Positions 4,901 to 54,139 of a stretch of 64,000 bases of DNA are shown in pieces; position 1 is the stretch's first letter; every line of letters starts with the position of its first letter. The stretch is from Antedon mediterranea (lineage: Eukaryota > Echinodermata > Crinoidea > Comatulida > Antedonidae), in assembly GCF_964355755.1 (NCBI RefSeq), contig NC_092677.1:16958101-17022100 (forward strand), written 5' to 3'. Position numbers and translations under genes: made by a program. The notes under the pieces were generated by a model. The model had not been told where the DNA came from and made no database searches. It saw nothing but the letters and a program-made list of their open reading frames with translations.

Positions 4901-7900
4901 CTCTACACAACAACACACTAAAAATTAAAGGGGTGTTCAAATTTAAGGTGTTGTATTAAACACAGCCTAGTTTTACATTACTTGTGATTATGATTATGGA
5001 TACAAAGTTTTACAAAGACAACCAGAAAACATAAACTCGCTTATAATCAAATTCCATACTAAGGCACTGTACCTTGTTCAGAAACTTGTTCCATTTCTTG
5101 ATAGAAAAACATCAGGTGAGGACTGGCATCTTCTTTGAAGAAAGTGTTCATTTTCTCGATCTATATAATTTATAAATGATTTATATTTTTCTAAATAATT
5201 GAATTTTGGTAAGTTAATCAAAAATAAGGAAAAAATTTAAATGTAGACAAACAGTTGAGAAAGTACATCAATGAATGCCGCATGAATGCTATTTTTAGAA
5301 AGGAAATTACAGGTTTTCAATAAATGATTGAATTTAAATACCTGTTGAGTAGTTCCACTATAAGTCTAATTTTAATCGATCAAACTACGTAATGTACTTT
5401 AATCAAAACAGCTTAAGTCATTATCCTCTCGTCTCACTTGTTAAGAAATTGAATTTTCAATTAACTGTTGGGTGTTTGTCAAAAGCAATTGAATTTGTAA
5501 AATTGTTTTGAATAAAATCAGGTCTGTTGGCAAGATTAACCACAGTATAAAGTATGCAAGATAACGAATGACGATAGAAGTTTTTATCTACAACTATAAG
5601 AAAACAATTTATACTTTCTTTGATGAAAATAATATTCTTAAAAATCCAATGATGATCAATAAGAACAATAAAATTGTTTTATCGTAACAATGTCATTGTA
5701 AAACATTCTTTGTAAAACAACTCACATTGTTTCCTTCCAAGATTGTGTCTTCCACTTCACTGTTTTCCAACCGAAGACATGAAGCCAGTGAATCCATGAT
5801 GAATGCATGACGTTCATCTAGAAGGGCGCGCTTTGCTTCACGTTCTTCCTTTAACTTTTGCTGAAAGAAAAAACATTAACTTTATGGATAAATTTGAACA
5901 ATATGTCTCATTCAAAAAGGCAGTGGCTATCAAAGATGATCAATTTCATCCGGCCTCTAGTATGTTCCAGTTGATGCGCAAAAGTTGGCGATTTCATCCT
6001 TTTAGGCCAATAAGGCACGATTTACAAATAGTTTCTTTCCAGGAGCTATTAGAGCCTTAAACATCTTGTAGACACTTTTTGTAATGTTTTTGTTTTTAGT
6101 TTGTGTTGTGTCCGTTGGATATTGTGCTCCGCCAACAGAGCAAACAGAATTTCTATGTTTTTTTTTAAGTTGAAACAAATGACAATAAATGATACTTGAC
6201 TTGCTATTCAAAGAGGCCTTATCGCCATTCACCGCAATAAACCATCTTTATATTGTGGTTTGAGAGAATCCAAAAAATTAAAATTGTTATGACTTTTATT
6301 TGTGTATTAACCATCTTTTGTTTTAATATTTTGTTTGTAACACTTTATATGGCTAATTGTTTATACCTCATTTGCATACTTTTCATAGTTGTGGAATGCT
6401 TGTGGAATTATTGTCATTTACAAAATCAAATGTAATATATTTTTATTTATAAAAATGACAGTTATTAAAATTGAACTACAAAATATGAATGCATCGATCT
6501 AACACCATTCGATACATTTTCATTCATTCATCTTCACATATTATTTTTATTAAATTGACCTTAGTTTTTTAAGTGAAAATAAGTCGGTACTTAAATCATC
6601 CAATAAATAATCAATCGTGAAAGAAACTAGACAATATCATGCATAGTTTACTAAGGCGATGGGTTGTCAAGCAATGGCTTAAGACGTTTCTTTTATCAGA
6701 CCTGTTGACATGGTAAATAGTAATCTGAGTCTCTACATATATTGTAGAAAACAATCTTTTGTTCAAATTGTTGACTCGGTAAATAGTCTCAAAGTCCCAG
6801 ACACACAAGCTTGTTGAATGTTGACTTAGAGAAGCAAGTGCATAGCAACAATACATAGCAACGAATGTTGATGAACATTAGATCTAACTTATTAACTATG
6901 AGACTAGATGATCATTTTGCTTCTCATTTGCAAAAAAAATGCATCCATAATATCAAAAGTATCGGAATTGTACTGGAAATGTTTTAAACTATTTGAAAAT
7001 CGTTCTGGGGTGGGGGATGGATATATTTACTAGTGAATAATAATTGTATTAATATTGTGCAAACCAGCAGGATAGAATTATTTTACTCATTGAATACAAA
7101 TTTGTATTTTAACAAGAAGAAATATTAAACATTTAATTTATTAAATACTTAATCTTAAAATTATTAATATAAATTATTACAATGTAAAATTTAAAAAGCC
7201 ACCCTATATCTCTATGCTTTGAAGGTCGGTATAATTTTATAAAGTAAGATAAGTTTAAAATTCACATTTAAGTTATTTTTTTAATAAAATAACTGAAGAA
7301 TATTGCTACTATATAACAATCCAAAAAGTGGATGATAAATATTAGCAAACGAAAAGACAGTGATTCTCTGAATGGAAGAATGCAACACTGATTGGTCCTC
7401 TGTATCTGCCTCCGCCAACAATTACACCCTAATAGCATGTTTGTTGAAAGTACTAAAAACAGAACAAAGTCAAATATTTTGCTGTGAATGGTATACAAGA
7501 AAGATACAATATATCAATACACGCTATTGTGTTAAAACTGAAATCGCCACGGTTGGTAAACTCATTGTATCTAATGATAGTTGCTATGGTAATAACTAAA
7601 GCTAAAGCTATAATTATTATTATGTAAACACAATATCATTTTGTTGCTATGGTAAATGTTCAAACAATATGGAAATGAATTTACATGAACATTCACAAAG
7701 CTATCAATGTAATTAACATACTTTGTTGGAGATAATGAACCATGGAGAAAAATTAATATTTTTATTTGGTACTTATTGAGGCAATTTTTTTAAGATATTC
7801 TCTGTACTAATCATTATTTTATTCCCTTTCACCTATATGCTGTTATTGGATACAAGTATCTCAATCACTTTTATGAAAATATTACCTATTTTTTGCTTAA

Positions 7901-10900
7901 CCAGAGTTGCTTATTTATTAAAATTTATGTTATTAGATTTATAGTACAGTATACAGTATCTACAGTATAAAATAATATAAATGTTACAAAAATAGGGTTC
8001 AGAAGGTCTGAGCTTATGTCATGGTTTGGCCTATACTTACAAACATTTAGCATAGAAATTAAACCAAATTTTGTAGGGGCTTAGTCTATACCCCAGGGGC
8101 TTATACTCAAGAGATCTAAATAAACTGGAAAAAATTGACAATCCAAAAAAGTAATGAAAACAAATAATAATGGTTAATAGCTTGTTCTCTTATTACTTGA
8201 TGTTTCTTGATATCCCTGCTGTGTAAAATCACAAGTGGAGATGCAGCTCCACTGCCTTCCACAAGACGGCTTTCGCGTTTGACAAAACTTCCTCCTCCTC
8301 TTCCTAAAGACATGGTGCTTCTGTCAGCTATCTGATGGCCGTGATGATGGCAATCGATTTACTGTATAGTAAATTTCAGTCTGAGTTCTACAGTAGTTTG
8401 TGTTCTGGTTGCTTTAGCCTTTAAGTCTTTTTCCTTAAATTAATAATCCTTTTATCTACCGTAAAAACGCTATTCTTGTAAAATGCACCTATTTTTTGGC
8501 CCAAGCATCATCCACTAATTATTGTAATATTAACCACTAACGTAAAAAAATATCAACCATTAATGTAACATTAATCACTAACAATACATAAGAAAATCAC
8601 CTAATAAAGAACAATAAAGAACTAAACCACTAATGTAACAAACTTTTAAACCACTAACATCAGTGGGTGATACAGCCCTTGGCTCTCTCTCATCCTGCCT
8701 TGTAACTACCTGTAGCTACAGTATGTGATATTGTGATTAATAATAAAAAACCGTACCTTAACACCTATAACACGTTTAACCTTTTTCATAAAAACTCTCT
8801 GCATCTTTGAAGAGTCTTCCTTGCTTAAAATCTACTCATCAACTAAACACATCTAGCGAAAGTAGTTACTACTAAAGTCATAATTACCTCTAAATCTATG
8901 CCCTGTACCTTGAATACCATTTTTTTGAACAAAGAACGTTTCATTTTCAGACAGATTTGATTAAAATTGATGTTTTAAATTGTTGTTCAGTCTATGCATA
9001 CAAGAAAGTATGAATACATGAGCATTTGTCACCAAGCGACAGTTTCTACTCAAAAATGGAAGAATTGACTTGTTCTATTCAGTCTGTTGTTAATGGGATT
9101 GTTGGTATGGATATTTACAGCTCTTAAAAACCAATCAAGACATTTATTATAATATAGGAAGTCAATCATCCATTTTTCTAATGTAAATTTGTAAAAGAAC
9201 ATTAATATTCATTGGATATACCTTCTTGTGTCATACAAAATAAAAAGCATTGAATTCGTTCCGCCATACCACGCCAAGAGAGTTAAAGCACAAGTGGGCT
9301 AATGGAAGGTGACACCTGCACATCAAGCAGAAGGTTCTGGGTTCAAATCTTGGTTGGGTGGATTTTTCTCATTCTCACATATTTCCTCATCTTTGTCATT
9401 TCAAATTTAATGAATTAATATTCAGTATACTGTATCACCGAACGGTTCAGAATTTATTCTGTGCTTGTTGATTAATATTAAGGGAATGAACCCATGCCTA
9501 AAACTTGCTTGAATTACCATAATGCAAGTTCTATAGTAGTCTGTACTAAGTCTACAAATATAGATACCAACCATCATCAAAGAAATTTTGAAGAAACACA
9601 CAAATTCCAAGAAAATTACTTAATTTAATTATAAGTAATGTACCGTTAACAAAATAATCAGGCATAAACTTAGTTATTGTGGGAAATATTGGGAAATATT
9701 TCAGATTGGTAACTTTGGGTAGGCCTAACTGCAACTTCACCTAGCACTGAGGCTACCATCTTTCTACTACCCAGTTATTGTTGTTAGCTTACAACTACAG
9801 TAGTCTAATCTATCAAACCTGATACAAGAAATTTCCTTTCAAAAAGTTACTTCTAATTGCTAAACACCAATCAAACTTTTAAAGAATATACTATATAATT
9901 CTAAAGTAACAAACTGTTTTAGCAGAACTCAGCTGAAATTCACAGAAATCAAAAACAGCAGTGAAAAGTACTGTATTCTATTGACTACCTCAATGACGAT
10001 AACAAGATAGCTTTTTATAAATTTTCAGCCCAAAATCTCACTGTTTACAAGCGGTGTCAAGGACAACCTGATAATTGTGCCAAATATGGTCATGTTATTA
10101 TTGTATTATTACCTGCTGACACTGTGACAATGTGATTTATAGTATTGATAGTGTTATTTTTGTACTGTACTGTACTTCTATTGTGAGTACAGTACTGTAC
10201 ATAAAAAACAAACTTGTCATAATACTATTGCAATTATGCAATAATGATAATTTATTTGTAAAATTAAATTAGAGGCACTCAGTAGGTCTCTTCTAATAAA
10301 TATTCTATAAAACATTTTGGTTTTAAACATCCTTATTTGGATTTTATGAAAACTTAATTTGAATAAACACCCTGGGGCATTATTTATTTTTAGGCGGAGG
10401 GGTATGGAACGCCGTTTACGCAACATTTCAATGATATGAATGTTATGACGCGATATGTGAATGAAATGCATCGATATGAATTGAATGGCGCGATATATGA
10501 ATGAAATGTTTTGAATTGAATGCTTTGAATTGAATGTTTTGAATGAAATGTTTTGAATGAAATGCTTTGAATGAAATGTTTTGAATAAATTTTTTGAATG
10601 CAATGTTTTGAATGAAATGTTTTGAATGAAATGTTTTGAATTAAATGTTTTAAATGAAATGTTTTGAATGAAATTCAAAGCATTCAATTCAAAACATTTC
10701 ATTCATATATCGCGCCATTCAATTCATATCGATGCATTTCATTCACATATTGCGTCATAAAATTCATATCATCAAAATGTTGCGTAAACGGCGTTCCATA
10801 GAAGGGCGTTTATTTTAGGAAGGGCGTTGATTTGAGGCAGGAGTTTATTTTTTTAAATATTATAAGTAAGATAATAAAATAAATTCTCCCTAATATGAAC

Positions 10901-13900
10901 AAACAAAATAAATAACAAGAAGTGATGAAATACAGTAAAAAATGCTTGGTCAATTATAGATCATGGAAGTCAATGAATTCTATAATAGAAATGTGTAATA
11001 ACAAAATATTACGTATAATGCATGTGGAGGGGCATTTATTCGGGTGGGGGAGAGGCGTTTATTCAAAGTGGGGGTGTTTATTTGAATAAATACGGTTATT
11101 ACGGTTCCACCAAACATATATAATGTTTTTACAAATTTCTTGTTAAAATATGTAAAAACTAGAGGGTACTCCGAGAGCACAAACCTCCGCCTACTATAAA
11201 ATTCCCCTACATAAAATTCCCCCCGAAAATGGTTTTTTTTTACATTTTTTTTATTAGTTCTAAAGTGTAAATAGGCTAACTGCAAACTACAAAGTTGTGG
11301 ATGAGAGTGTGGTGTAATGGTTATGTATCCAGCCTCTCACAGTTGAGATCGCTGGTTCGAGTCCCGCTGAGGTTTTTTTTTTATATTATTTTTTTATTTC
11401 TTTTTTTTTGTTTTGTGGACCTTATTCTTTGACCCTAACCCTTCAAAATTTAACCACAATTATATGATGTGTCATTGATCATTGTGGCTAAGTTTGGTGA
11501 GAATCGGATAAAAACTGTGGTCTCTAGGCAGTAAAATAGTTTTTTGTTAGTTGTGACCTTGACCTAAGACCTTTTCCCCTCAAATTCGAACTCGTCCGAG
11601 CTTTTGGGGCATAGATCATTGTTGCCAAATTTGGTGAGAATCGGATAAAAACTGTGGCCTACAGGCTGTTCACAGACACACACACAAACACACACACACA
11701 TACAGGGGTGGTGAAAACATAACCTCCTTGGCGGAGGTAAAAATGTTTTTAAAAACTTAAGGGCTGTTTGGAGAGTTAAACCAGGAAGTTGTTTACAACT
11801 CCCTGGTTAAACTTTGTATTAATTTTGTAAACAAAATTAGTGGTCTTCAAATCAAATAGATTAAAAACTGACAATAGTTTACAATTAGCTTCAAACACAT
11901 TTAACAATTCATTACAGCCAACTCATTTTTTGTAAACAAAATGACAAGGTCTTCTGGTTCTTCAAATAACAAAAGGTCTTCCACAGGGGGCAAGTGGAGT
12001 GTCCTATTATCAGGCAATAAACAAAGATCAATTGTTCTTCAGCAAATAGCTTAGGGTTTGATTACATAGTAAAGTTGTTTGAAAACTAATAGGACATGAC
12101 TGTAGGGAGTTTTCTTCCAAACTACAGCAAATCACCGGGTGTCTCGAAAACAGAGACCTCGAAAACAGAGACCAGAGACCCGAGACCCAGGATCTCTGTT
12201 TTCGAGAAAATCTCGAAAACAGAGACCCCCACTAAAACGTCTCAATATTACGTAATATAGGGGGTCTCTGTTTTCGAGTTCTCGAAAACAGAGACCCCCA
12301 CTAAAACGTCTCAATATTAAGTCAATATTACGTTATATAGAGGGTCTCTGTTTTCGAGAAAAACTCGAAAACAGAGATCCCCACTAAAACGTCTCAATAT
12401 TACATTATATAGGAGGTCTCTGTTTTCGAGAAAAACTCGAAAACAGAGACCCCCCACTAAAACGTCTCAATATTAAGTCAATATTACGTTATATAGGGGG
12501 TCTCTGTTTTCAAGAAAAACTCGAAAACAGAGACCCCCACTAAAACGTCTCAATATTACGTCAATATTACGTTATATAGGGGGTCCCCACTAAAACGTCT
12601 CAAAATCACAGAATGACGTATCAGTAATAAACGGTAACTGATATGCCGATCAAAGAACATGCCGCAACGATAAGAAGAGATTGATGAATTCTTGAACGCG
12701 TGTGAAAAGACTGTCATTTTGGAATACAAGGTCGACGTCCTAGAAGTAAGATGTATAAATGCATGCTGTGCCTTTTAGAAGCTAAAAGCGGGAGATTATT
12801 TCAAAAGCTGACACTAGTTTCGTAACATTTATTTACAAGCATAAAAGATAATAACGTACAATGCAATAACAAAATGATATGAGGTCAGACTTTGAGGCAG
12901 ACTGGAGGATGAAGACAAATATATTGTGTTGGGCGAGCCTTAAAAAATAAATGAATTTTTAAAAAATAAATAAATTGATAAATAAATAAACATAAATTCA
13001 CGGTTTTTGCGATAAAAGTTGGGTTTTAATAATTTATGACGAAGCTCGTTGGTGGGTATTTGCAACACTCTTAATAAACAGGGATTATATTAGGGGGTCT
13101 CGGGAAATCTCGAAAAAAGAGACCCCCAATATAATGAGACGTTTTAGTGGGGGTCTCTGTTTTCGAGATTTTCTAGAAAACAGAGACCCCCTATATAACG
13201 TAATATTGACTTAATATTGAGACGTTTTAGTGGGGGTCTCTGTTTTCGAGAAAAACTCGAAAAGGAGACCCCCCTATATAATGTAATATTAAAACGTTTT
13301 AGTGGGGTCTCTGTTTTCGAGAAAAACTCGAAAACAGAGACCCCCTATATAATGTAATATTAAAACGTTTTAGTGGGGTCTCTGTTTTCGAGAAAAACTC
13401 GAAAACAGAGACCCCCTATATTACGTAATGTTGAGACGTTTTAGTGAGGGTCTGTTTTCGAGAAAAACTCGAAAACAGAGACCCCCTATATAATGTAATA
13501 TTGAGACGTTTTAGTGGGGTCTCTGTTTTCGAGAAAAACTCGAAAACAGAGACCCCCTATATAATGTAATATTAAAACGTTTTAGTGGTGGGGTCTCTGT
13601 TTTCGAGAAAAACTCGAAAACAGAGACCCCCTATATTACGTAATATTGAGACGTTTTAGTGGGGGTCTCTGTTTTCGAGAAAAACTCGAAAACAGAGACC
13701 CCCTATATAACCCAAATCATCCATGGTTGGGCCTATGCTTGGGCCTATGCTTTTGGCCTATGGTGGTGTAACCCAACATTTCTCTTACCCTGGATATTTT
13801 TTTTATCTGTGATACTGTAAGCTACTGTATACTGGCAACAACAAGTTTTAAAAAAAGAGAATTTAAAATAAAATATTCAAAGTACATCTTTTCTAGCACT

Positions 13901-22249: not shown

Positions 22250-25200
22250 CTATTTTATCCATGTTATAAAGTTCCTCGTAATGTGATATACAACATAACA
22301 ACAAATCGTAAAAATTATTGACTGATTTGGGAAGGATGCCCGTCCAGTCGGACCAGCATATTTGTTAAACACTGTTACAAAACTTCCGCCATTACAATGG
22401 GCTGTGCTGTCTCCGAGGCATGCTGCGTATTTCATGACGTGCATTATGTAATTCTGTTCGTGGACGCCGTGCAGTAGATGTGCCATTGGTCCGTCGGCGT
22501 AGATTGACACGTCTTCGCCTCCATGACTCTCTGATATACGTGGAACTAAAGCTTGCTGAATGTATACAATTGATTCTATCATAGAAAACAAACACAATTG
22601 AAAGTCGGGTGTGTATTTACAGCGTGATTCTAACATTTATAACAAAAAAGACAGCAGGGACCGAGGGCATAATTTAGATTCTACATTAAGTCATTTCAGA
22701 CGACACAGCCAATTTCGCGTCAATCTGCCGCACCAGAAAGAATCGAAGACCCGCGACGACGACGACCGTACACTTTTTAAATGCACATGTCTGTAATAAC
22801 AGAAGAATCCAACATTGTAACCTCGACATATAGACGAAATTGGGTACGACGACTTTGACAAACCAAACTTACTGCGCATGCGTATATAACTAGGTCGTCA
22901 CCGCTCCATGATTCTAATTAGGATGTTACACAAGCGTAACGCTATGTAATGTGACCAATCACAATACGATAGACCATCATTCATGGCGTCGTGATTGGTT
23001 AAATTACTTGTGTTGCGTTGAGTAAGTAAAGCTTTAGGAATAATGGACGGTTTCAGCAGTAGGCCTACTAAGCACATAAACATGATGATGCTGTCGAGTT
23101 ATAACTTTGAAGGACTAACATCAGCCACCATTCTTCAATAAGCGTATTAAATATTACCTGTTATATTTCCTGGATCAATGCGTCGCCCAAATGCTTTGAA
23201 CCCGGCCCACGTTTCAATACCTCCTGGCCCATTAGCGTATGAAAGCGTCGTGTAAGGTACACCATCAAGACCCACAGATGTGTCATCGATTCCTGGAATT
23301 GAAAGGCAACATTAATTATCATAAAAAGTGCATTGGTTAACATTACAATGTTCTTGTCTTTCGACTTTCAGTGTGTGATTTCAGAAGTCGACGAGGACAT
23401 TTGACAACTACAATAAATATCGTAGTACTTTCCATATCGAAGCATATTCAAAATATTGACGTTTCCATCCTGTTAAACGTCATTTTAATGTTGACAACAT
23501 TTATGCCAGTATTTATTTCTGTTTATTTATTTATCACTGTCACTCACTCTTATCTGAACAATGGCTCCACCATTGATAATTTGGACACTGTCCTTGTAAA
23601 TATCTGTCATAAAATGTATCTTAAATGTTCAAGAAGTAAAAGTTTGAGTTTGTAACCTAGAATTGGATTTCCACGACTTGGGTATCCCCCAAACGTCATT
23701 GTATGGCTATGATCCGCAGTCACAATCATGAGAGTGTCGTTTATATTGGTTAAAGAAGTAGCTTTTGTAACAGCATCAGCCATGGCGATGGTGTCATGAA
23801 GAGCAAGCGACGCAATCCCATTATGATGTGCATGATCAACCCGAGCACCTTCGACCAATAGGAAGAATCCTTTTTTGTTTTTTCGAAGAATTCTTATAGC
23901 CTTTTCAGTCATCTCTGATATGGAAGGTTCACCGGCAATATCGTTATATCGTAAAGACTCGTACTGCATGCTGCTATATTGGAACAGGCCTAAAGTAAGA
24001 AAATCAATTGAGTTTTCAAAGTTTTGAAGAGTGGCTAATCGAATCATTTCTTTCTTCTGGATTAGTTTATTCCATCTTTACACACCAGACTATAACTTAT
24101 GTCTTCATAAAAATAAGTTTAAAATGATGTGATGAATTAATATTATTTTGTTTTACTTACAATATTTATCAAGACTTTATTACACCAACCAGATCCAAAA
24201 CGCGACGTGATGCGACAGTAAGAGCGGTTAACTAGAATTGGCAATGTGCAAGAGAGCTGCAAACAGATCTATGGCCTATAATGTCTATATAAGACTGATT
24301 CTCTTTAGATAACAAACTATCTCCCACGGACTATGCAACGTACAATCGTCGCCTGCAATAACTGATTTCACTCTCAAAAAGCGAAACCGTACGCGTAAAC
24401 TTAGCCTAGGTCGTCTTAGGCTAATGTTTGTAGTCAAACAATAGTCTTTCGGTTCTGACAAACAATAAAACGTGACATGAGGTAAAACTTCTGTCCGGAA
24501 TATGAATGGCTGCTACGCAACAAATATGTTGGCCTACAAACCTAAAAGATGATCGGTCTCTTCTGGATTAATTTGGTCAAATTCAGCTTGATTCCAAACG
24601 TAGTGCGTCGTTGAGTTTGGTGGTTTTGAGTCTATCCATTCCTTTATTAAGTTACGTCCATCTTTTCGTTCTCCAAACCGAACATGTTCCGGATCACGCG
24701 TATTAATTCCTAGGAATTTACTTCTACCACCGGCAAGAGCTACCTACATTATAAAAGATATAAATATTGTATGGTGTTAATATCAGATTTGACGAATAGA
24801 AACCGATAAGGACGTCAGGGCTTTGAAAGTTACCAGTTACGACGTGCGGCGGTAAGAAAGTACCAATGCAGTTAGTGATGAAATAGAGTATGATGAAAAC
24901 TTGATATCACGTATGATGGGACTGGTGCTGGATACAGTGGTAATTCGGCTACTGATAATGTACTACCTTCACATACGGTATCATATATAGCGACAATAAA
25001 CAGTATGCATGTCTGCCGACAGATAAGATAAAGATAAAATGCTTTTATTGCAACAATTGAATTTGTTGAATTATACAGCAATCTTTCTTTCATATAGGTT
25101 TCTGTTATTATATTGACTTTTGTTCTAAGGCGTTATTAAGTCTTTTCTGACAGCCCCGCACATTATTGTTGTTAGGTAATCACCATATGAGAATGGGTGG

Positions 25201-28602: not shown

Positions 28603-31600
28603 CTATTCAGTACATTGCATTGTTCTATAAGACTTCATTTCTTGTTTGGAAACATTTTCGTTGAGAGGAAACTGCTCCTCTGCTTTCGCAAAAATCAAAA
28701 ATATCGTCAGTCCAAATAACATGACTCCACTAACTATCTTAAACATCAAAGACCATTGTTCAAATGTGTTCTGAAAAATAATATATTAGCCATGGTAGTT
28801 TGTATAATGCAGTTGATGAATATATGCCTATATTATATAATATTTATAAAGTGTTAATATAAGAATCAGCATAGGGCATTCAGAGGCTGGTTATAATCGT
28901 GTGATAAAGCGTGTGCGGAAGCTATTTAAATTAAACTAGAAATAAACACGAAATGTAATCTGAAGAGGAAAAATCATCATCACCATCATCATCATTAAAT
29001 ATTTCGTCTTTAAAATATTGGTTGGAAAGAATCGATGAAATATAGACAAGGGATGGGAAAAGAATGCTTGAGCATGCCTGTCAAAATGAGTATAGAAAAA
29101 GAGAAAGTCTGAGGAGAGTGAAGACAAAATAACATAGTGTGAGTAACATAGTGTTGCCAAAATCACTTGCTACAGAAGACTAGTCTCTCATACTGTATTA
29201 TTGCTGTCTTTTATACGATATTAGTCAACTTACTGTGTCTTTTGTTAATTCACCAATAATTGTTGGACCAACAATTCCTGAAAAACTTGCTAAAGTTGTC
29301 ATAATTCCTATGACCACCCCGGAATAATGCTTTGTTATGTCCAATACGTTTGAAGTGAGACTAGCTGTACATCCAAATATACCAAATGCCAGCATTATCA
29401 AGACCAGACATGATATGGCACTCTGTTTGAAAAACTCCATGAAAATAAGTAAAAAGGAAGGTAACCCAATACCTAAACAAGAATATCATAATGACATCAT
29501 AATTATATGATCTTGTGTGATTATCTTTCTTTACTTTTTATTTATAATATTTTAAAACACCTTCCTGTTTTATTAAGCCTATTATATTCGCTTTTGTCTA
29601 TTTGAATCAGTGAGAAACTCGCCAACTGTTTAAATGATTGTGCTTATAAACTAAATAATAATTTAAGACGATGGAGTGGAGTGAAAAGAGTAATGTGTTA
29701 CCATTCTGACAGTTGATGTACACGTTAACCAGCAAGCTATAGCTTTACTACTCTACTATTATTGTATTTATTTTTATAAAGTCTATAAAATCTTACCCAA
29801 ACATGTAAACAGCTTTCTTGTTTGCAAAATAGTAAAGTATTCACGACGAATAAATACGTCTGAACATGCGCCAGAAAGTAGGACTATGAAGCAACTCAGA
29901 ATACCTAAACTTGACGAAATCCACCCGATCTGAAGAACAAGAAGTTTTAATATTCAAATTCGTTATTGCAATAAAGTAAACATTGTTGAATTTACATAAT
30001 AATAAGTGATATACTGTATATTAACACCATATCTTAATGTAAGGAGCAAAAGTGACAACTATTATTGGTACTGCGAGTTTTTTAATTCTTTTTCAAATTC
30101 TTAACTTACCACTTGTAAATCAAATCCTAAGATGTCTACGATGAACGTCGGTGCTTCAGTAATAATAAAATATAGCCCAAAATTTTCGAAAACGAAAGCA
30201 ATTACTACCGCCCAAACTGCCGATGATTGAACTAAACTCAGCCATGGAATCGATATGTTCTTTAAAAAAACACAATATACTTGCATTATTTTAGTTCAAT
30301 AATTGACTACAAATGTAGATATCTGTAAGTACTATATCAGAAGTAGCAGTGGCAGTGGCAACAGTAGCAGTGGTAACAGCAGTAGCAGCGGTAGTTGTAG
30401 TAGCAGCAGTGGCAGCAGTTTAACAGTAGCTTCGTTGGCGGTCACAGTGGTAGTCGCAGTTGTAGTGGTATTGATAGCGGTAGTGGTAGCGATAGCAGTA
30501 GCAGTAGCAGCAGAGTAGAAGCAGTAACAATCGCAGTGGTGGTGGTGGTAGCAGCATTAGCGGTAGAAGCAGTGGTGGCAGCAGTTGCAGTGACAGGAGC
30601 AATAGCAGTGGCAGTGGCAGAAGCAGTATCAGCAAACATTTTTATTATATATCCTACCTTATTTTTATTGTTATCGTTAGTGTCAAAACTCTTCAAATAT
30701 TCGACCTCTTCACTCGATATAAATGGATCTTGATCACGAGTTTCGTAAATTAAGACAACCCACAGTGTTGCAGTAAAAATGGCAAAGACACCTGGTATGA
30801 AATAAATTATTTTTAAAACAAGATATTCTATCTATTTAACCATCCATCCATGTATTATGTATGTATATAAGTCAGTTTTATGATCGCGATCAGTTACATT
30901 ATTATTATTCTAAAATCATGTGTAGCGAATTGCGCTCTATTAAATGTTTCAGAGTTTTGACGAAAGAGACAAATATACTATATTCATATTCGGGTGGTCA
31001 TACGATGACGTCATACTTAATAACCTCAGTATCTATAACGACATTTTTTATTTGAACACATACGTATAGATAAATATTTAGGCCTATTTAGAAAAGATGA
31101 TAAGAAGATGAGGCCCAAGACCTCACTATATATTAGGTCTAACATGTAGAAGATAGGATAAGATGATGAGTCCCAATACCTCAGTATCTATTAGGCCTAA
31201 CCTTTAGAGGAGATGATAAGAAAACGAGATCCAAGACCTCAGTATCTATTAGGCCTAACCTTTAGACAAGATGATAAATAGACGACATCCAAGACCTCAG
31301 TATCTGTTAGGCCTAACCTTTAGAGGAGACGATAAGAAGACGAGATCCAAGACCTCAGTATATATTAGGTCTAACCTTTAGAAGATATGGTAAGATGACG
31401 AGATCCAATACCTCAGTATCTATTAGGCCTAATCTTTAGAAAAGATAACAAGACGAGATTCAAGACCTTAGATCTAAGATATCATCATCTTTTATCTCTT
31501 AAAAGTGATTATCATAATGAGAAGATTCTGGATCTCATTATGAATGATTATGATTATCATAGATATTGGTGTGTAAGACGTTGTGATATCTATGCATCTT

Positions 31601-39943: not shown

Positions 39944-41514
39944 TTAAATAATAATAGTAGAAACAAGGTATTCATGTAGTTTGAACTTAAATGAAGATAT
40001 AAAATTAATAATTTTAATTTCATCTGGTAAAGAATTCCAAATTTTTGGTCCTTGAAGAGTTATATCATGCTTGCCAACCTCCGTATTAAAACAATCATAA
40101 GCATAATCAAATTTATTTCTGGTATTATAATTATGAACTGAACTAAAAGTTTGAAAATAAGTATCAAAAATTCTGGGCAGTTGATTATGTTTGAATTTAA
40201 ACATAAATAAAGCAACATTTTTTGTAAGTAAGTCGTAAATATTAAGTGTATTAGATAAGACAAAAAGAGGAGCAGAATGGTGGAGGTAATGAACATTATA
40301 AACTGATCTTAAAGCTCTTTTTTGCAAAATATAAATACGGTTTAAATTAATTTTTGAAGTAAAACCCCAAACGGTTATACCATAAATTAAATGTGGCAAA
40401 AAGAGTGATTTATAAATTAATAGTAAAACGGAGGAAGGCAAGGCATGTTTGAGTTTATTGAGGACACCGACCACTCTTGATAGTTTTAATGAAATTGTAT
40501 TAATATGAGAAATAAAAGATAAGTATTCGTCAATAAAAATGCCAAGAAATGTTGTTGCTTTAGTTCTTTCAATTTCGCTGATGCCGTAATATAATTTAGG
40601 AATGTTGGGGGGGGATTAGTTTATTAACTGAACGAAAAATAATAAATTTGTTTTTTTTAATATTTAACGAAAGCTTATTTGATTTTAACCAGTTTGCAAT
40701 TTTAGTAAGTTCTTGATTCATTAAAATAATAGCTTGGTAGATGTCCTTATGATTAATAAATAAACTTGTATCATCTGCAAACATAACAATTTCAGCACAA
40801 TCACTAATATAATTTAAATCATTAATAAATAACAGAAATAAAAGCGGAATGGATCCCTGTGGAACACCACACGAAACTGGCCGCAGCTCAGAGACAATAT
40901 CATTGATTGATATATATTGATGTCTGTTACTTAAATAATTTTCAAACCACTTAAGTGGTATACCTCTTATACCATAGAAACGTAACTTATTAATTAAAAT
41001 ATCATGAGAAATACAATCAAAAGCCTTTGACAGGTCAATAAAAACTCCTAAAGTAAATTGTTTATTGTCAATAGCAGACAAAATATTATGGATTGAATGA
41101 TGGATGGCATGTATTGTAGAATGTTGGGAACGAAAACCAAACTGAGAATTGCTGAGGATGTTAAACTTTGTAAGAAATGAAATAGTTTGATCATAAACTA
41201 TTCTTTCAAGTAGTTTAGAAATAGTTGGCAAGATGGAGATGGGCCTATAGTTATTGATATTTGAGACCTCACCACCTTTATGGATGGGTACAACTTTAGC
41301 AATTTTCATTGCATTTGGAACCACACCCTTTACTAAAGACATGTTCATTATGAATGTTAGTGGTATAGCTAATGCCAATGGACATATCTTTAGTATATAT
41401 GGACCAATGTTATCAAAACCAGGAGCTGTTGATTTTAAATTATTTATGTATGTTACTAATTCTTGTTCACATACAGGTTTGAAAAATAATGATGAAGGAA
41501 AATTACCCTGAAGG
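39944..41514 (-). pseudogene. LINE ORF2, reverse transcriptase half
   Basis: Continues ORF2 after the LTR element: VTYINNLKSTAPGFDNIGP (upstream of the listed Met), NNYRPISILPTISKLLER, LGVFIDLSKAFDCISHD, VSCGVPQGSIPLLF and FADDTSLF (catalytic Asp pair), then WLKSNKLSLNIKKNKFI. A C-terminal region follows from about 40605 (FLGIFIDEYLSF, LNKLKHALPSS, LIYGITVWGF, GPKIWNSLPDEIK). The frame shifts at a run of eight C/G at 40607-40614, so the RT and C-terminal parts are out of register. The element is therefore inactive even apart from the insertion. Confidence 0.88.
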
Positions 41515-41650
41515 TGTCACATATGTTCTGTTAATATGCTAATTATATTTGTTTGTTATTTGCAAATTATGCAAACTACGTTACGCTCGGTGAAGTAATA
41601 AAAGAGTAGTTGAATTAAAAGAACCGTGTTGACGAGTCACACTTGTAATA
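41515..41650 (+). repeat. 5' LTR (136 bp)
   Basis: Begins TGTCACATATGTTC and ends CACACTTGTAATA. It differs from the 3' LTR at one base (aataaaaga versus aatacaaga). Very short for an LTR, and lacking the usual CA terminus. Confidence 0.93.
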
Positions 41651-41667
41651 TGGTGTCAGAATAGTGG
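41651..41667 (+). promoter_or_regulatory. Primer binding site, tRNA-Leu type
   Basis: tggtgtcagaatagtgg directly follows the LTR. It nearly complements the 3' end of a tRNA-Leu (consensus TGGTGTCAGAAGTGG from memory), with one extra base. Confidence 0.65.
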
Positions 41668-41680
41668 AAATTCACTCAAA

Positions 41681-43093
41681 ATGGAATCGTTGAAATTTAA
41701 GCCGCCTCCACCCTTCGATTTTGATGGTCCTAGTGTGTCTGCTGCTTGGAAAAGGTGGAAACAGAGATTTACATTCTTTCTGAAAGCGACTGGCAGTGCA
41801 CGTAAAAGTGGTGAAATAAAGGTAGCAATTCTAATTACTACACTGGAAGGGCGTGGCTTAGATATTTACAACAACTTTACGTTCACTGATCTTGTAGGCG
41901 AACCGGGTCAGGAAGATTATGTCCCAGCAGAGGACAATAATGATTTTGATACAGTAATGTCAAAGTATGATGAATACTGTAATAAACGGGACCCGATAAT
42001 GGCGTTACGAGCGCAATATTGGCAATATGAACGACCCGAAGGTCAGGGTTTGGATGAGTTTGTGAATGACTTAAGAACAATGGCGGTGAATTGTAAATTT
42101 GTGGATCAAGACGGTACGATTCGTGATAAGCTTTTCTTCAGTGTAACAAATCCAGTGATGAAAATGAAAGTTATGGGCGATGATGGCAACGCTACACTTG
42201 ATACTGTGATACACCGAATGAGAAATTTTGAGAGTTCTAGACGCGAGCTTGAAATGGCCGGTGTTGCAAGTGATTATAAGCCGAAGGTTCATGCATTGAG
42301 AAGAACCAAATCACATAAACAGACGCCAAGGGTTAGTGGTCAACAGAACCATCAGTTTACGGATGCAGCCAAAATTAAATGTAGCAGGTGCGGTTCTTCA
42401 CATCTACCTCGTCAGTGTCCAGCTTATGGTAAAACATGCTACGGGTGTAAAGGTTTGAATCATTTTCAGTCTGTGTGCACCAAACGTTTTTCCCGAGGAC
42501 GCGGTCGTGGACGTGGAAGAGCTGTACATACAATGGATGAACAGTATATTATTGCCGAAGGTGTAAGTGATCCTAATGACTTATACATTGACACTTTAAC
42601 TGTTAAAGATAAAAATGAGTACTTTTATATTGACACTCTAAGAGATAACGATGACAAGAACGCTTGGTTCTATGGTGTGTTTGTGGGAGGTAATGTGTTA
42701 AAGATGAAGCTTGACACAGGAGCAGGTGTTAACTGCATACCACTGGAAACATTTAGAAAGTTACCAGGACATAAGAACATTAAAGTATATCATTCTAAAA
42801 CTAACCTATATAGTTATAGTGATGAAATTGTAAAACATATTGGTAAAGTTACTCTAAATGTAAAAGTTGATAACATCCAAAATGATTATGACTTCTTTAT
42901 TACTAATGTTGATGGTCCACCTATACTTGGATTGAAAGCCTGTAGGGAGCTTGGTCTGATCAAACGTGGTAACAATATGATGTGTAGTGATAATGTGATA
43001 AATAATAAATATGTACATGCACTAACTAAAGATTCTTTGATTGAAAAGTGGTGTTTCTCCAGTAGTCCATCCACCCCGCAGGGTGCCACTTAG
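41681..43093 (+). CDS. gag: Gag-protease polyprotein of the LTR retrotransposon
   Basis: A 470-residue frame. The N-terminal capsid-like part starts MESLKFKPPPPFDFDG and contains WKRWKQRFTFFLKATG, typical of this Gypsy group. Two CCHC zinc knuckles lie around residues 236-268 (CSRCGSSHLPRQC and CYGCKGLNHFQSVC), followed by an RGRGRGRGR basic run that binds RNA. The aspartic protease has its active site LDTGAG at about residue 345 and a downstream ILGLKACRELGL. It ends in a frame different from pol, overlapping it by 53 bases. Starts 31 bases after the LTR. Confidence 0.93.
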   Translation: MESLKFKPPPPFDFDGPSVSAAWKRWKQRFTFFLKATGSARKSGEIKVAILITTLEGRGLDIYNNFTFTDLVGEPGQEDYVPAEDNNDFDTVMSKYDEYCNKRDPIMALRAQYWQYERPEGQGLDEFVNDLRTMAVNCKFVDQDGTIRDKLFFSVTNPVMKMKVMGDDGNATLDTVIHRMRNFESSRRELEMAGVASDYKPKVHALRRTKSHKQTPRVSGQQNHQFTDAAKIKCSRCGSSHLPRQCPAYGKTCYGCKGLNHFQSVCTKRFSRGRGRGRGRAVHTMDEQYIIAEGVSDPNDLYIDTLTVKDKNEYFYIDTLRDNDDKNAWFYGVFVGGNVLKMKLDTGAGVNCIPLETFRKLPGHKNIKVYHSKTNLYSYSDEIVKHIGKVTLNVKVDNIQNDYDFFITNVDGPPILGLKACRELGLIKRGNNMMCSDNVINNKYVHALTKDSLIEKWCFSSSPSTPQGAT

Positions 43094-45614
43094 TCTGCAT
43101 ACCAAGCTGAAAGAAAAACTTGACGATATGGAGAAGAGGGGCGTGATTAAACGGACCGACAAACCAACAGATTGGGTCAACAGCCTAGTGATAGTGGAGA
43201 AACGAGACGGATCCTTGAGGTTGTGTTTGGATCCACGTGATTTGAACAAAGCCATTAGACGTGAACATCATATGATACCGACCGGTAAGGACGTAGTGAG
43301 TCAGCTGTCAGGTAAAACACTTTTCACTGTCTTTGACCAGAAAGATGCGTACTGGCAAGTTCCTCTTACTGACGCTAGCGCAGATATATGTACATTCAAT
43401 ACTCCCTTTGGACGATACAGTTTTCTAAGAATGCCATTTGGTATCTGCAGTGCTAGTGAGGTGCTACAGAAACGAAACCAGCAAATATTTGGTCATATAC
43501 CTAACGTACACATAATATCTGATGATATGATTATAGCTACAGGTAGTGAAGCAGAGCATAATGCAACAGTACAGAGGGTGATGGATACGGCCAGAGCGAA
43601 CAATGCCAAATTCAATGGAAGCAAGCTTAAGTATAAACAGTCTGAATTGGTGTTCATGGGAAACGTGGTGAGTGCCGATGGACAGAAACCAGACGAAGAA
43701 AAGGTTAGAGTTATCAAAGAAATGCCTGACCCACAATGTAAATCTGACTTGCAACGTATAATGGGGATGCTTAATTATCTTTCACAATTCATACCTAATA
43801 TGTCCAATGTGAGTGCACCTCTCCGGGAATTGCTCAAGAAAGATGTTGCATGGTTTTGGGGTCCAGAACAAGCAGAATCCCTGAGGCAGTTAAAGGCGTT
43901 GATTAGTAGCAAACCAGTCTTAAGTTTCTTTGATCCACAGAAGCCAACCATTATCCAATGTGATGCATCATCCACAGGGCTCGGAAGCTGTTTGCTTCAA
44001 GAGGGTCATCCGGTTGCGTTTGCCTCTAGGTCGTTAACATCAGCTGAAGTTAATTACTCACAAATTGAGAAGGAGATGTTGGCGATCTGCTTTTCTATAC
44101 ACAAATACCACCAATATGTATATGGCCGAGCTGTTGAAGTTCACACTGACCATAAACCACTCGAAACAATCACACGTAAACCACTCCATAAAGCTAGTCC
44201 TAGAATACAACAAATGCTGCTCAAATTGATAAAGTATGAGCTTGATGTTAAGTATGTTCCTGGAAAGTACATGTACATAGCTGATGCTCTCAGCAGAGCA
44301 TATCCTGATAAGGTTGATCGTGATGCCCAACCCCTTGAACAGTTGAAATATAGGGTGCATAGTCTAGACGAAATATTGCCCATGAGTAAAGCAAAAATTG
44401 AAGAAGCAATACGAGCTACACATGCAGATGTGGTACTCCAAACTCTAATTCTAACATGCAAAAGCGGGTGGCCTAAACATAGATGGGGTGCACCGGAGCA
44501 AGTTAGGCAGTATTGGCATCTTCGTGATGAGATACATGAAATTGATGGTCTTGTGTTTTTAGGTGAGAAGTTGATTGTTCCTAGCCAAATGAGAGCAGAT
44601 ATGCTGAATAAAATTCATGAAAGTCACCTTGGGATGGAGAAGTGTAAGGCGAGGGCCAGGTCTATTTTGTATTGGCCAGGTATGACCAACGATATAGAGT
44701 CAGTAGTGTCAAGGTGCCCTGTTTGTGTAAAGTTCATGCGTAGAAATCAACGGGAGCCGATGATTCCACATAAGGTTCCTATGAGACCATGGGCTAAGCT
44801 GGGCGCGGATATATTTACATTCGCTGGCAGAGATCATCTTATTGTAGTTGACTATTTTTCCAAATACCCGGAAGTAGTGACACTCACTAGCAAAACGGCT
44901 GGAGAAATCATCAAAAAATTGAAATCTATATTCTCAAGACATGGCATCCCTGAAATATTAATGACTGATAACATGCCGTTCGCCAGCTACGAGTTAAAAC
45001 GGTTTGCTAACCAGTGGGGGTTTGATTTAGTGACGTCCAGTCCGACATATGCCAGAAGTAATGGGCAAGTTGAACGTTTCGTCCAAACCATTAAGCAACT
45101 CATGAGGAAGTCCGTTGATGAGGGAAGCGATTTTCATCTTGCTCTACTAGGCTATCGTGATTCACCAATTGCAGGGTTGAATTGTTCTCCTGCTCAGTTG
45201 TTGATGAGCAGAAAGTTAAGGTCAACACTTCCAGTCACACATACATTGCTGCAACCACAAGTTATTGACGGAGTTAGAGATTTCCTGCAGTCACGTCAAC
45301 AATCTATGACAAAATATTATGATCGTGGTACACGTGTATTGACGAAACTAAGAAAAGGGGACAACGTGAGAATATTGAAAGGACGGCAATGGGAACCTGC
45401 TGTTGTGGCTAAGGAACATGAGCTACCCCGTTCATATGTAGTGATGACCGAAGATGGAACGTCGTACAGACGGAATCGACAACATTTATTAAACACTCAA
45501 CAACCGGATACTTTGCAGAAGGGCGTACCAACTTTGCAGAAGGTACCGGAAGCACCACCCTTACGTAGAAGTGATCGTGTTAGTCGTCCACCGGATCGAT
45601 TGGATTATAAATAA
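43041..45614 (+). CDS. pol: Pol polyprotein (RT, RNase H, integrase) of the LTR retrotransposon
   Basis: An 857-residue frame lying in +1 register relative to gag. RT: VVHPPRRVP at the N terminus, LCLDPRDLNKAI, TVFDQKDAYWQVPL, LRMPFGICSA, and ISDDMII as the catalytic box near residue 160 (Tyr of YxDD replaced). RNase H: CDASSTGLGS near 305, EKEMLAI, TDHKPL and DALSRAY. Integrase: zinc finger H-H-C-C (HESHLGMEKC ... CPVC), then D (LGADIF), D (MTDNMPF) and E (GQVERFV). The C terminus has a GDNVRILKGRQWEPAVV chromatin-contact-like module. No internal stop. The usual RT-proximal segment between protease and VVHPPRR seems shortened. Confidence 0.93.
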   Translation: MKSGVSPVVHPPRRVPLSLHTKLKEKLDDMEKRGVIKRTDKPTDWVNSLVIVEKRDGSLRLCLDPRDLNKAIRREHHMIPTGKDVVSQLSGKTLFTVFDQKDAYWQVPLTDASADICTFNTPFGRYSFLRMPFGICSASEVLQKRNQQIFGHIPNVHIISDDMIIATGSEAEHNATVQRVMDTARANNAKFNGSKLKYKQSELVFMGNVVSADGQKPDEEKVRVIKEMPDPQCKSDLQRIMGMLNYLSQFIPNMSNVSAPLRELLKKDVAWFWGPEQAESLRQLKALISSKPVLSFFDPQKPTIIQCDASSTGLGSCLLQEGHPVAFASRSLTSAEVNYSQIEKEMLAICFSIHKYHQYVYGRAVEVHTDHKPLETITRKPLHKASPRIQQMLLKLIKYELDVKYVPGKYMYIADALSRAYPDKVDRDAQPLEQLKYRVHSLDEILPMSKAKIEEAIRATHADVVLQTLILTCKSGWPKHRWGAPEQVRQYWHLRDEIHEIDGLVFLGEKLIVPSQMRADMLNKIHESHLGMEKCKARARSILYWPGMTNDIESVVSRCPVCVKFMRRNQREPMIPHKVPMRPWAKLGADIFTFAGRDHLIVVDYFSKYPEVVTLTSKTAGEIIKKLKSIFSRHGIPEILMTDNMPFASYELKRFANQWGFDLVTSSPTYARSNGQVERFVQTIKQLMRKSVDEGSDFHLALLGYRDSPIAGLNCSPAQLLMSRKLRSTLPVTHTLLQPQVIDGVRDFLQSRQQSMTKYYDRGTRVLTKLRKGDNVRILKGRQWEPAVVAKEHELPRSYVVMTEDGTSYRRNRQHLLNTQQPDTLQKGVPTLQKVPEAPPLRRSDRVSRPPDRLDYK

Positions 45615-45873
45615 ATGTATCAATAATTAACTTCATTTTATGTTTATTTTGCAGATATCATGTTTATTTTCAAACCATCCTATAATGTATGAAACATATG
45701 AATGTGGTCTAAGAAACAATTTGAAACATATGAATGTGATCTAAGAAACAATTTATGTTTAAGGAAAAGTAATATTATTTATTTATGAGAATGTGATATA
45801 TCGTGTCTAATTTACTTTTGATATTAATTTAAAAAAAGAAAATAAAAATTAAACTTTAGAAATTTATTTTGTT

Positions 45874-45886
45874 AGAAAAGGAAAGA
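45874..45886 (+). promoter_or_regulatory. Polypurine tract
   Basis: agaaaaggaaaga immediately before the 3' LTR, the plus-strand primer site. Confidence 0.8.
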
Positions 45887-46022
45887 TGTCACATATGTTC
45901 TGTTAATATGCTAATTATATTTGTTTGTTATTTGCAAATTATGCAAACTACGTTACGCTCGGTGAAGTAATACAAGAGTAGTTGAATTAAAAGAACCGTG
46001 TTGACGAGTCACACTTGTAATA
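45887..46022 (+). repeat. 3' LTR (136 bp)
   Basis: Same ends and length as the 5' LTR, with a single difference. Followed by the target duplication gaagg. Near-identity of the LTRs shows a young insertion. Confidence 0.93.
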
Positions 46023-47400
46023 GAAGGAAATCATTGTAAGGTTGAACATTGCCATTGAATGGAGTATTCGAAAAAGAATTTGCAATATTTGAGAAAAATG
46101 AATTAAAAGCTTCGGCTTTTTCTTTGTCATTTGTATATTCACATTGACCATTTATTAGTTTAGCTGGGAATGAATTTTTCCTTTTTCTACCCATTACATT
46201 ATTAATTTCGCGCCATGTACTTTTCATATCACCTTCACATTTACCAAATACATTGTTATAGTGCTCTTGTTTACTATATCTAATAATACTATTTAGTTTG
46301 TTTCTATAACAACAATATTTTTTCCAATGTGAAGGTGATGACGAAGCTTTATATCTAGCATACAGCTTTTGCCTGGTTTTGATTGACTTGGCTATACCTT
46401 CAGTTATCCAAGGTGATTTGAGCTTGTTTGCTCGAGTACGAATATTTTGCAGTGGAAAATGTCTGTTTATACAATCGTTAAGTATGTTATTAAAACTAGA
46501 AAAAGCTATGTTTACATCACTTTGTTCAAGTACTTCATTCCAGCTTATGTTATTTACATTTTCAATGAATTCTTGTTTAGATCTATCATTGTAAATACGT
46601 TTCTTAATGAATTTAGGTGGTTTTTTTTTAATATGGAAGGATGAGTTAATACAAAATGTGGGAAAATGATCAGATAAATCGACAGTAAATATTCCGGATG
46701 TGAAAGAGGGATACAAGGATTCAATATTACAGTAGATATTATCAATAATAGTAGAGCTATGCAAGGTAATTCGGGTTGGATTAGTAATAACAGGCTGAAA
46801 TGAATGACTGAAAATATTATCAATGTGATCCTGGACATATTGATCAGTACTAAGAAGGTTGATGTTAAAATCACCAGCTAAGTATGCCATTTTTTTATCT
46901 TCATTAATAATTTTCATGACTGATGATAGGTCCATATTTAAGGTGTTAGCGTTGGTGTCAGGTGGACGGTATATAATTCCAGCAATAATATTTTTACCAG
47001 AGTTATTCTCAATTTCAATAAAAATTGATTCAGCTGACGTAATTAGGCTTGAGAGATCATATCTCCTTTTAAAGGCAACATGAGTTGAAACGTATAGTGC
47101 AACGCCACCACCTTTTTTATGTTCCCTGTTATTTAAAATAAGGTTATAATTTGGAATGCTTAGAAGATTGTTGTCGGTAGAATCCTTAATCCAAGTTTCA
47201 GTAAGGGCAAGTAGAGTAAAACTATGATTTAAGGACTGAATAAAGTTACAAAATTTATCAAACTTATTATTTAAACTTCTACAATTTAGATTTAATATTG
47301 AAAAGTTAGATGACGTTTCAGAACTATATATAGTATTAAACAAATCTATATCATAATAACTTGAGCAATGATTGCAATCACCATTGACATTATTTTGCAT
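46023..47400 (-). pseudogene. LINE ORF2, endonuclease half
   Basis: About 460 codons from MQNNVNGDC. Endonuclease marks are LNLNCRSLNNK, LALTETWIKD, GGGVALYV, IIYRPPDTN, YLAGDFNINLL, STIIDNIY and VDLSDHFPTF, followed by the linker to KAEAFNSFFSNIA. It nicks the target DNA for target-primed reverse transcription. The frame is uninterrupted up to the LTR insertion at 46022, where the codon series is cut after NDFLL. The other half resumes at 41513. Confidence 0.88.
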
Positions 47401-47594
47401 TGGAGTAAGTTAAAGACAAAAATAAAATTGAAAAAGAACAAAAAACAAATACCGTACAACTATAAGTATCAAAGCAAATCGACTTATACTAAGTAATACG
47501 CACACGTATATTTGCCTAATTGGTAACTATGTGTGACAGCCGTCGCTCCATCAATAACAGCTAATGAACAGTACCGGTAAAGCCTTGCATCAAA

Positions 47595-52244: not shown

Positions 52245-52650
52245 AAATATCTGACGAACACCAACTCAATCCACTATTTAGTATTCAAAACTTCGTCTGA
52301 AGTACTTTTAATAGTACTATAAGACTTAATTTCTTGTTTGGAAAAATGTTCGTTGAGAGGAAACTGCTCAAATGCTTTCGCAAAAATCAAAAATATTGTT
52401 AGTCCAAATAACATGACTCCACTAACTATCTTAAACATCAAAGACCACTGTTCAAATGTGTTCTGAAAACAACGATATTAACAAAGAATATTTTAACAAT
52501 GATGTATAATACTGATAAAATAGTAAATATCAAATATTCGGAGTGAAGAATCAAGACGAACATTTATTTGATCTAATACGAACAAAGTAAAACAAGGGAA
52601 GAGAAGATAAGATGAAAGTTAATTCTAAACCGTCCGGTGATATACTGACA

Positions 52651-52780
52651 TTTAATTAATCAATTTGAAACGAAAAGATGAGGAAATCTGTGAGAATGAG
52701 AAAAAGTCACCCCAACCGAGAATCGAACCCGGAGCTTCTGCTTGATATGCAGCTGTCCTAACCATTATATCACTGGGGCT
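52651..52780 (-). mobile_element. tRNA-derived SINE, family 1 (intron 8 of copy C)
   Basis: The minus-strand head gccccagtgatataatggtt has a good A box; the B box is gggttcgattc (complement at 52720-52730). It is followed by the same body as the 9.3-kb copy (tttttctcattctcacagat, then ttcctcatctttt) and a TTAAT-rich tail. The cloverleaf is better preserved than at 9.3 kb, but the tail shows it is a SINE. Flanking sequence gaaagttaattctaaaccg occurs on both sides (52.61 and 52.97 kb). Confidence 0.8.
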
Positions 52781-54139
52781 TTCATGGTATTGTTCAAACT
52801 TGATTGGATAGCGACTTTTTAATATTGCCGGCGGAATTCAGAACTAGTCCCTCAATTGTACACACGGGCACCAGAGATCAAATTGATACGCCCTCATCTA
52901 TCAGTATTATTCACGAAGCGGGATCTCCGGTGACATACTTATATCTATATATAAACACATTAGACAAAGAAAGTTAATTCTAAACCGCCCGGTGAAATTT
53001 AATTAACGTATAATTACTGTATCAATGATTAAATAAATCGTTATTATTTATTAAAACAGGTAAACATAATGCACATCTAAAACGTAACATGTCACGTGTT
53101 AATGTCAAAATCAGCACAGGATCTTCAGAAATAATACTTTTGTGATACTAAACTTGATTAACCAGACCCCGAAATGTAATCTCGAAGGAAAAATCATATC
53201 ATTAAACATTCGTCTTTAAATATTGGTCGGAAAGAATGGAGGTACAAAATAAATGGGTAGTACAAAAAAGAACATCACTATTATCAAAGTTAGCTGATGA
53301 AAACAAACAATCTCAGAGAGTTTTATTATTAAGCTAGTAGGCCCAGCAAACATTTCCTGAATTTGACGAAACTAATAATATAAATAAGGTATCAGAAAAC
53401 TTACTGTGTCTTTTGTTAATTCCGCGATAATTGTTGGACCAATAACTCCAGAAACACTTGATAAAGTTGTTATGTCCAATACGTTCGGGGTGATACTCGC
53501 ATTAGTACAAAAGGATATTCCAAATGCCAGAATCAACAGCATCAGACTTGATACAGCACTATGTTTGAAAAAGTCCATACAACTAAATAAAAACGAAGGT
53601 AGCCCGATACCTACAAAAATAGTAATAATATAACATTACTTACTTTTTAATTTCCATACTTCCAAAACTGTCAATTTGTCATAAAATATGTAGAATCTTA
53701 CCCAAAAATGTAAACAGCTTCCTTGTTTGCAAAATAGTCAAATATTCACGACGAATACAGGCGTCTGCACATACGCCAGAAAGTAAGACGAAGCAACAAC
53801 TCACAATACCCAGACATGACGTAATCCACCCAGTCTGAACAGTAAGAAATCATAACTGTATATCACATTTTAAACATCCTGTCTTTATGTGTAAAAATGT
53901 TAGTCTATGCAAATACTTTATGCAATCCATGTCTTAACTTACCGCTTGTAAATCAAATCCCAAGATTTCTGTGATAAACGTCGGTGCTTCAGTAATAATG
54001 AAATAGAAACCGAAATTTTCGACAACGTTTACAATGACTACCGCCCAAACCGCCGACGATTGGAGTATACTCAACCATGGAACCGATATGTTTTTAAAAA
54101 AGCACACGTGATTCAATTATTTTAGTTTAGTGTCAACTA

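Follow-up and report, generated by a model that had tools for sequence, protein, structure and literature searches.

A genuine and discrete array, palindromic at two scales, occupies positions 12138-13712 (about 1.6 kb) of the window, the 64-kb stretch of Antedon mediterranea contig NC_092677.1 that was analysed. Its repeat unit is itself a hairpin and the units form two blocks of inverted orientation, giving the inverted arms built of tandem repeats that are a feature of foldback elements. On balance, with about as much to be said for this reading as against it, the array is read as what remains of a non-autonomous foldback-type element that template switching has reshaped.

Hairpin units in two inverted blocks

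A fuzzy search recovered 13 hairpin units, five in the left block and eight in the right, with the stem GGGGTCTCTGTTTTCGAG and with joining spacers (CACTAAAACGTCTCAATATTA...) that are inverted between the two blocks. The left block (12188-12585, + strand) has hairpins starting at 12188, 12260, 12340, 12412 and 12497, which span 12188-12534, and its spacers read CACTAAAACGTCTC...ATATAG. The right block (13149-13712, - strand), whose spacers are inverted relative to these, has hairpins starting at 13149, 13232, 13303, 13374, 13446, 13515, 13589 and 13661, which span 13149-13699, and ends in a terminal spacer stub. Tandem Repeats Finder (TRF) reported arrays within 12189-12585 (periods 72, 83/84 and 156) on the left and within 13212-13710 (periods 71 and 141, scores 838-839) on the right. 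Among the best 25 of 200 arm-to-arm pairs, the best ungapped ones ran to 122 nt (96% complementary) and 106 nt (97%). The TRF arrays, arm pairs and fuzzy search confirm that hairpin units with spacers between them, in two blocks of opposite orientation, lie where the initial annotation had put them. An arm-to-arm inversion of about 500 bp had also been described; the blocks are indeed inverted, but not continuously, and no ungapped match exceeds 122 nt, since the spacers are of unequal length (31 or 42 bp).

The initial annotation had taken every unit for a perfect hairpin; 9 of the 13 are perfect with a stem of at least 14 bp. There are in addition a degenerate hairpin (13093-13127), a collapsed one of which the base alone remains (12579-12588, + strand; GGGGGT/CCCC, GGGGGTCCCC) and a scrambled left end with partial stems (12138-12190, + strand), in which TRF reported a period of 15 at 12143-12173. 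The number of hairpins in the element exceeds chance: the rest of the 64 kb holds just two perfect hairpins of at least 14 bp, both of them TA runs, against nine in the element, and none appeared in 20 random sequences matched in first-order make-up.

Inversion axis and unique segment

The unique segment of 482 bp (12603-13084, + strand) had been seen as a centre around which the blocks face each other. This proved not to be so. The segment is preceded by CACTAAAACGTCTCA and followed at its far end by TTATATTAGGGGG. These are how a left-oriented spacer starts and finishes, and the segment sits inside one spacer of the left type. The orientation switches at the first hairpin after it, the degenerate hairpin at 13093-13127, which has TATAT-type spacer ends on both sides; this hairpin is the inversion axis, so the unique segment is off-axis. 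Beyond the axis is a short spacer of 23 bp (13127-13149, - strand), which reads in reverse CACTAAAACGTCTCATTATATTG. Among the aligned spacers, its TTATATT end is common only to the right end of the unique segment. Judged from its letters, this spacer may mirror the spacer that holds the segment but carry no 482-bp insert, or may represent a deletion of it. The GC content of the blocks is 0.40 and 0.39, compared with 0.33 in the unique segment and 0.34 (33.6%) in the window.

Two origins were considered for the unique segment and rejected. A transposon-like insertion was one: the first 60 and last 60 bases of the segment share no inverted match as long as 6 bp, and direct matches of at least 6 bp (TAATAAAC, ATGACG) lie away from the edges. 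A captured host exon was the other. A 34-residue reading on the + strand matched nothing in PDB sequences (E up to 10) or Pfam, while three frames in or around the segment on the - strand gave one Pfam match, to a holin profile (E 0.11), which was taken as chance; these four frames held no convincing coding match. A search for Pol III boxes, allowing up to two mismatches to the consensus letters, gave one weak A-box-like match at 12895 and no B box.

Spacer variants and loop orientation

Spacers start with CACTAAAACGTCTCAATATTA (4 of the 12 full ones vary there), finish with ATATAG and come in a 42-bp and a 31-bp form. Three variants are identical letter for letter across the blocks (with L and R for the left and right block, L2 = L4 = R1, L1 = R7 and L3 = R5), and spacers are not significantly sorted by block (permutation P = 0.148 for 12 spacers, the 23-bp spacer at 13127 being left out). 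Such shared variants would fit a common origin of the two blocks or exchange between them. In mirrored order three are shared, a number reached by 25% of shuffles (P = 0.25); as the mirror order is not significant, a single inverted duplication is not claimed.

Had a block simply been copied in inverted form, its loops would be expected to read TTTTT on the + strand. Eleven of the 12 five-base loops are A-rich on the + strand, in both blocks: seven AAAAA and one ATTTT on the right, three AAAAA and one AAAAT on the left, where the fifth hairpin has a two-base loop. The ATTTT loop (13168-13172, + strand) is the sole five-base loop to follow the arm inversion. This bias in loop sense has a two-sided binomial probability of 0.006, a calculation that assumes independent hairpins, which tandem copies are not. 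When the arms are aligned in one of several possible registers, five hairpins pair; in three of these pairs an A-run in one loop stands opposite a T-run in the other, a fourth pair matches except at a single base and the fifth includes the two-base loop, with other mismatches scattered along the alignment.

The same-sense loops in both blocks seem, by analogy, to be a footprint of template switching inside hairpins. Interstrand template switching inverts a loop and keeps its stem, with 69 loop-only cases in rRNA described in the accessible part of PMC8794818; in yeast genes, ten spacer inversions are given, only with arms above 9 bp, in that of PMC8604942. As there described, these hairpins resemble the array in having perfect stems with inverted loops, but they are single and lie in rRNA, miRNA or yeast coding genes, whereas here the hairpins form an array within a larger inversion. 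A single loop flip would be enough if it occurred in a founder unit that then spread in tandem. Changes in the stems affect one side and have not been corrected on the other; among 16 stem pairs, counted over the 10 distinct hairpins of the 13 submitted, none has changed on both sides. As template switching should even out stems, these one-sided changes count against it as the keeper of the stems.

Hairpin units within a larger palindrome would allow two expected effects of template switching, flipped loops and evened-out stems, to be tested in nature and, if the genome holds many copies, loop orientation could be counted directly for each. In a foldback with a near-perfect hairpin as its unit, templates might even switch at two nested scales, blocks inverting at the large palindrome and loops flipping singly. 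We consider this unlikely; if true, the loop letters would keep a tally, for each unit, of the frequency of hairpin inversion in a living genome, and from the same-strand bias (11 of 12 loops) the direction of replication or transcription could be read.

Ends, flanking repeat and copies

A 7-bp direct repeat, CAAATCA, flanks the element (12128-12134 and, as an exact match, 13713-13719) and is a candidate target-site duplication. For random pairs of window positions, a seven-letter match within 5 bp of both ends has a chance of 0.4%, and a shared stretch of at least seven anywhere in the 20-bp flanks one of 2%; the test was post hoc and the repeat is modestly unlikely only. The outermost ends do not form an inverted pair (left, CCGGGTGTCTCG; right, as reverse complement, GGTTATATAGGGGG). 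For most inverted-repeat transposons, asymmetric ends of this kind are not known.

The exact stem and spacer patterns do not recur in the rest of the 64-kb window, where BLAST with the element gave short matches only (the best at E 0.002, over 22 bp in the A/T-rich unique segment; for a block, 0.30). The exact hairpin and spacer patterns were found in 0 stretches of viral_contigs, a collection in which an animal repeat is hardly expected. No Pfam match to a transposase was obtained in the 19 window pieces scanned.

Origin of the array

The foldback transposon proposed initially is the explanation that we favour. The inverted tandem-repeat blocks, the unique segment, the flanking repeat and the lack of a coding match in four frames argue for it, and the ends, which are not inverted copies, against. 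The raised GC content of the blocks, the confinement of exact unit patterns to the element within the 64 kb, the shared spacer variants and the loop sense also count in its favour; the modest improbability of the repeat and the non-significant mirror order count against. On this reading, a foldback-type element would have entered a CAAATCA target lying either ahead of a DNAH5-like dynein gene or within its first intron, presumably by a transposase acting in trans. The blocks would later have grown and shrunk by slippage and unequal exchange, and template switching within hairpins during replication would have flipped loops independently of the arms.

The main rival is local amplification, in which template switching and slippage during replication would have duplicated, inverted and multiplied a single hairpin-forming sequence on the spot, without its ever being mobile. 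That the exact unit patterns occur only here in 64 kb, that the two ends are not inverted copies and that the blocks are unequal (five against eight hairpins) all agree with such an origin, and the flipped loops and collapsed hairpin fit template switching or slippage of the kind described in the accessible text of PMC8794818 and PMC8604942. The flanking 7-bp direct repeat and the raised GC content of the blocks speak against it, as does a second, unrelated foldback 1.3 kb away (10403-10800), which shows that such structures occur in this genome. Local amplification is possible but rather doubtful.

A tandem array of a tiny inverted-repeat element would turn the unit inside out. The hairpin halves would be 19-bp terminal repeats (CTCGAAAACAGAGACCCCC), the spacer the inside of the element and the AAAAA 'loop' the joint between copies, with copies in both orientations and the joint in one sense. 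The same-sense loops of both blocks would then need no loop flips, and spacer and unique segment would represent a single interior that varies in length (31, 42 and about 500 bp). However, no lone copy is present in the window, the ATTTT loop at 13168 does follow the inversion and, to our knowledge, transposition is not expected to yield tandem arrays with a constant 5-bp joint. We regard this arrangement as improbable.

RNA folding

The prediction of very strong RNA hairpins was borne out. The folding energy of the element is -813 and -819 kcal/mol for its two strands, compared with -276 to -517 kcal/mol for ten stretches of the same length from the window, and according to this model the array would form double-stranded RNA if transcribed. 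Compensatory base-pair changes were seen in 0 of 16 stem pairs, a comparison that gave no sign of selection on the fold. A structured RNA family was rejected as a candidate, no Rfam family reaching its gathering score in the element; in the whole window only two tRNAs elsewhere do so. Within 12100-13750, all 88 Rfam rows with E up to 1 are below gathering scores and are mostly miRNA hairpins. No function for the host is indicated, and a functional RNA or regulatory hairpin array under selection is very improbable, since very strong folding of both strands is set against the absence of stem pairs changed on both sides (0 of 16) and of an Rfam family at gathering score in the element.

Comparison with known foldbacks

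Inverted arms of tandem units are also found in the sea-urchin TU and Drosophila FB elements, to which the array is likened by description, not by sequence. Further comparisons of the putative foldback-type element are with Tetris, Galileo and Tm1, each as characterized in the accessible part of its paper. Tetris of Drosophila virilis (PMC4079207) likewise has long inverted arms with tandem repeats and a non-coding middle, and its transposase was not found. It has TIR-220 repeats, target duplications of 8-10 bp and several copies, and its middle separates the arms, whereas the unique segment here is off-axis. Galileo of the P superfamily (PMC3573991) shares the long inverted arms and has 7-bp target duplications; in one subfamily the number of internal tandem repeats differs between the arms, as in the unequal blocks here. 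Its repeats are about 210 bp long, however, and transposase-coding relatives are known.

Tm1, of the Mutator/Foldback family of root-knot nematodes, has asymmetric short ends outside its inverted part (PMC3169594). Like the array, it combines composite inverted arms, tandem repeats that vary in number, asymmetric ends and flanking direct repeats. It differs in its units of 13-15 bp, not described as hairpins in the accessible text, in target duplications of mostly 9 bp and in its many copies, the comparison being by description and not by sequence. Against Tetris, Galileo and Tm1, as far as the three accounts (PMC4079207, PMC3573991 and PMC3169594) extend, two features of the array are unusual: each repeat unit forms a hairpin of its own, and loop sense does not follow the inversion of the arms.

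Sea-urchin TU and Drosophila FB are cited as foldbacks in the part of PMC4079207 that was available. In a literature search for sea-urchin or echinoderm foldbacks, this Tetris paper alone mentions 'sea urchin' and none has 'TU elements', among the matches listed; no paper was found for the 14-letter stem. Foldback-type elements have been linked to chromosome inversions (Galileo) and to the origins of satellites (Tetris, PMC4079207), as stated in the accessible sections of those sources.

Genomic context

A dynein heavy-chain gene lies on the - strand of the window and runs towards lower coordinates, with Pfam DHC_N1 matches at 240-650 and 2324-2650 (two of the ten reading frames scanned). The exon at 240-650 resembles residues 400-503 of 'Dynein axonemal heavy chain 5' (chain 8j07_n0; E 3.1e-38), and that at 5693-5860 resembles residues 19-66 (E 8.8e-11). 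The limit of the latter at 5,860 is, as read by eye, an TTTCTTTCAG/CAAAA acceptor. The element had been placed in a dynein intron; a dynein gene is nearby, but the intron is unproven, as the homologous exons begin at about 5,860 (- strand) and 6.3 kb separates the element from the first exon that resembles DNAH5, upstream of which it lies. ATG frames occur at about 8.3 kb, with no dynein match in PDB sequences (E up to 10; seven weak other matches) or Pfam, and at 14.5 kb, with none in PDB sequences (E up to 1) or Pfam. Judged from their reading phase, either could be joined in frame to the exon near 5,860. A first coding exon at 8.3 kb would place the element outside the gene, and one at 14.5 kb in its first intron.

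The second foldback (10403-10800) has two 129-nt arms that are 97% complementary and separated by 140 nt. Its outer part is GGAACGCCGTTTACGCAACATTT, with TAT/ATA at the outer edges, and its inner part (10498-10674) consists of 12.7 copies of a 14-bp unit, TGAATGAAATGTTT. The unit length of Tm1, as given in the accessible description, is closer to this foldback than to the hairpin array.

Other repeats and genes are present in the window. By reading of its frames, 41511-46022 is an LTR-type retroelement, with 140-bp end repeats that are 98.6% alike. It splits a LINE-type element on the - strand, with reverse transcriptase and endonuclease domains, into pieces at 39944-41516 and 46009-47409, and this nesting gives their relative age. 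Alkaline phosphatase exons are found at 22250-24077 (- strand), and frames up to 26644 are similar by eye. Several diverged copies of one gene region lie within 28609-63996, and two frames of this region weakly match major-facilitator transporters, below the Pfam cut-off. A 58-bp tandem repeat (6.8 copies) occurs at 31087-31476. Positions 9285-9454 and 52621-52782 hold inverted copies, 79% alike, of one stretch; it overlaps an Rfam tRNA match (52708-52779) and is possibly a tRNA-derived SINE.
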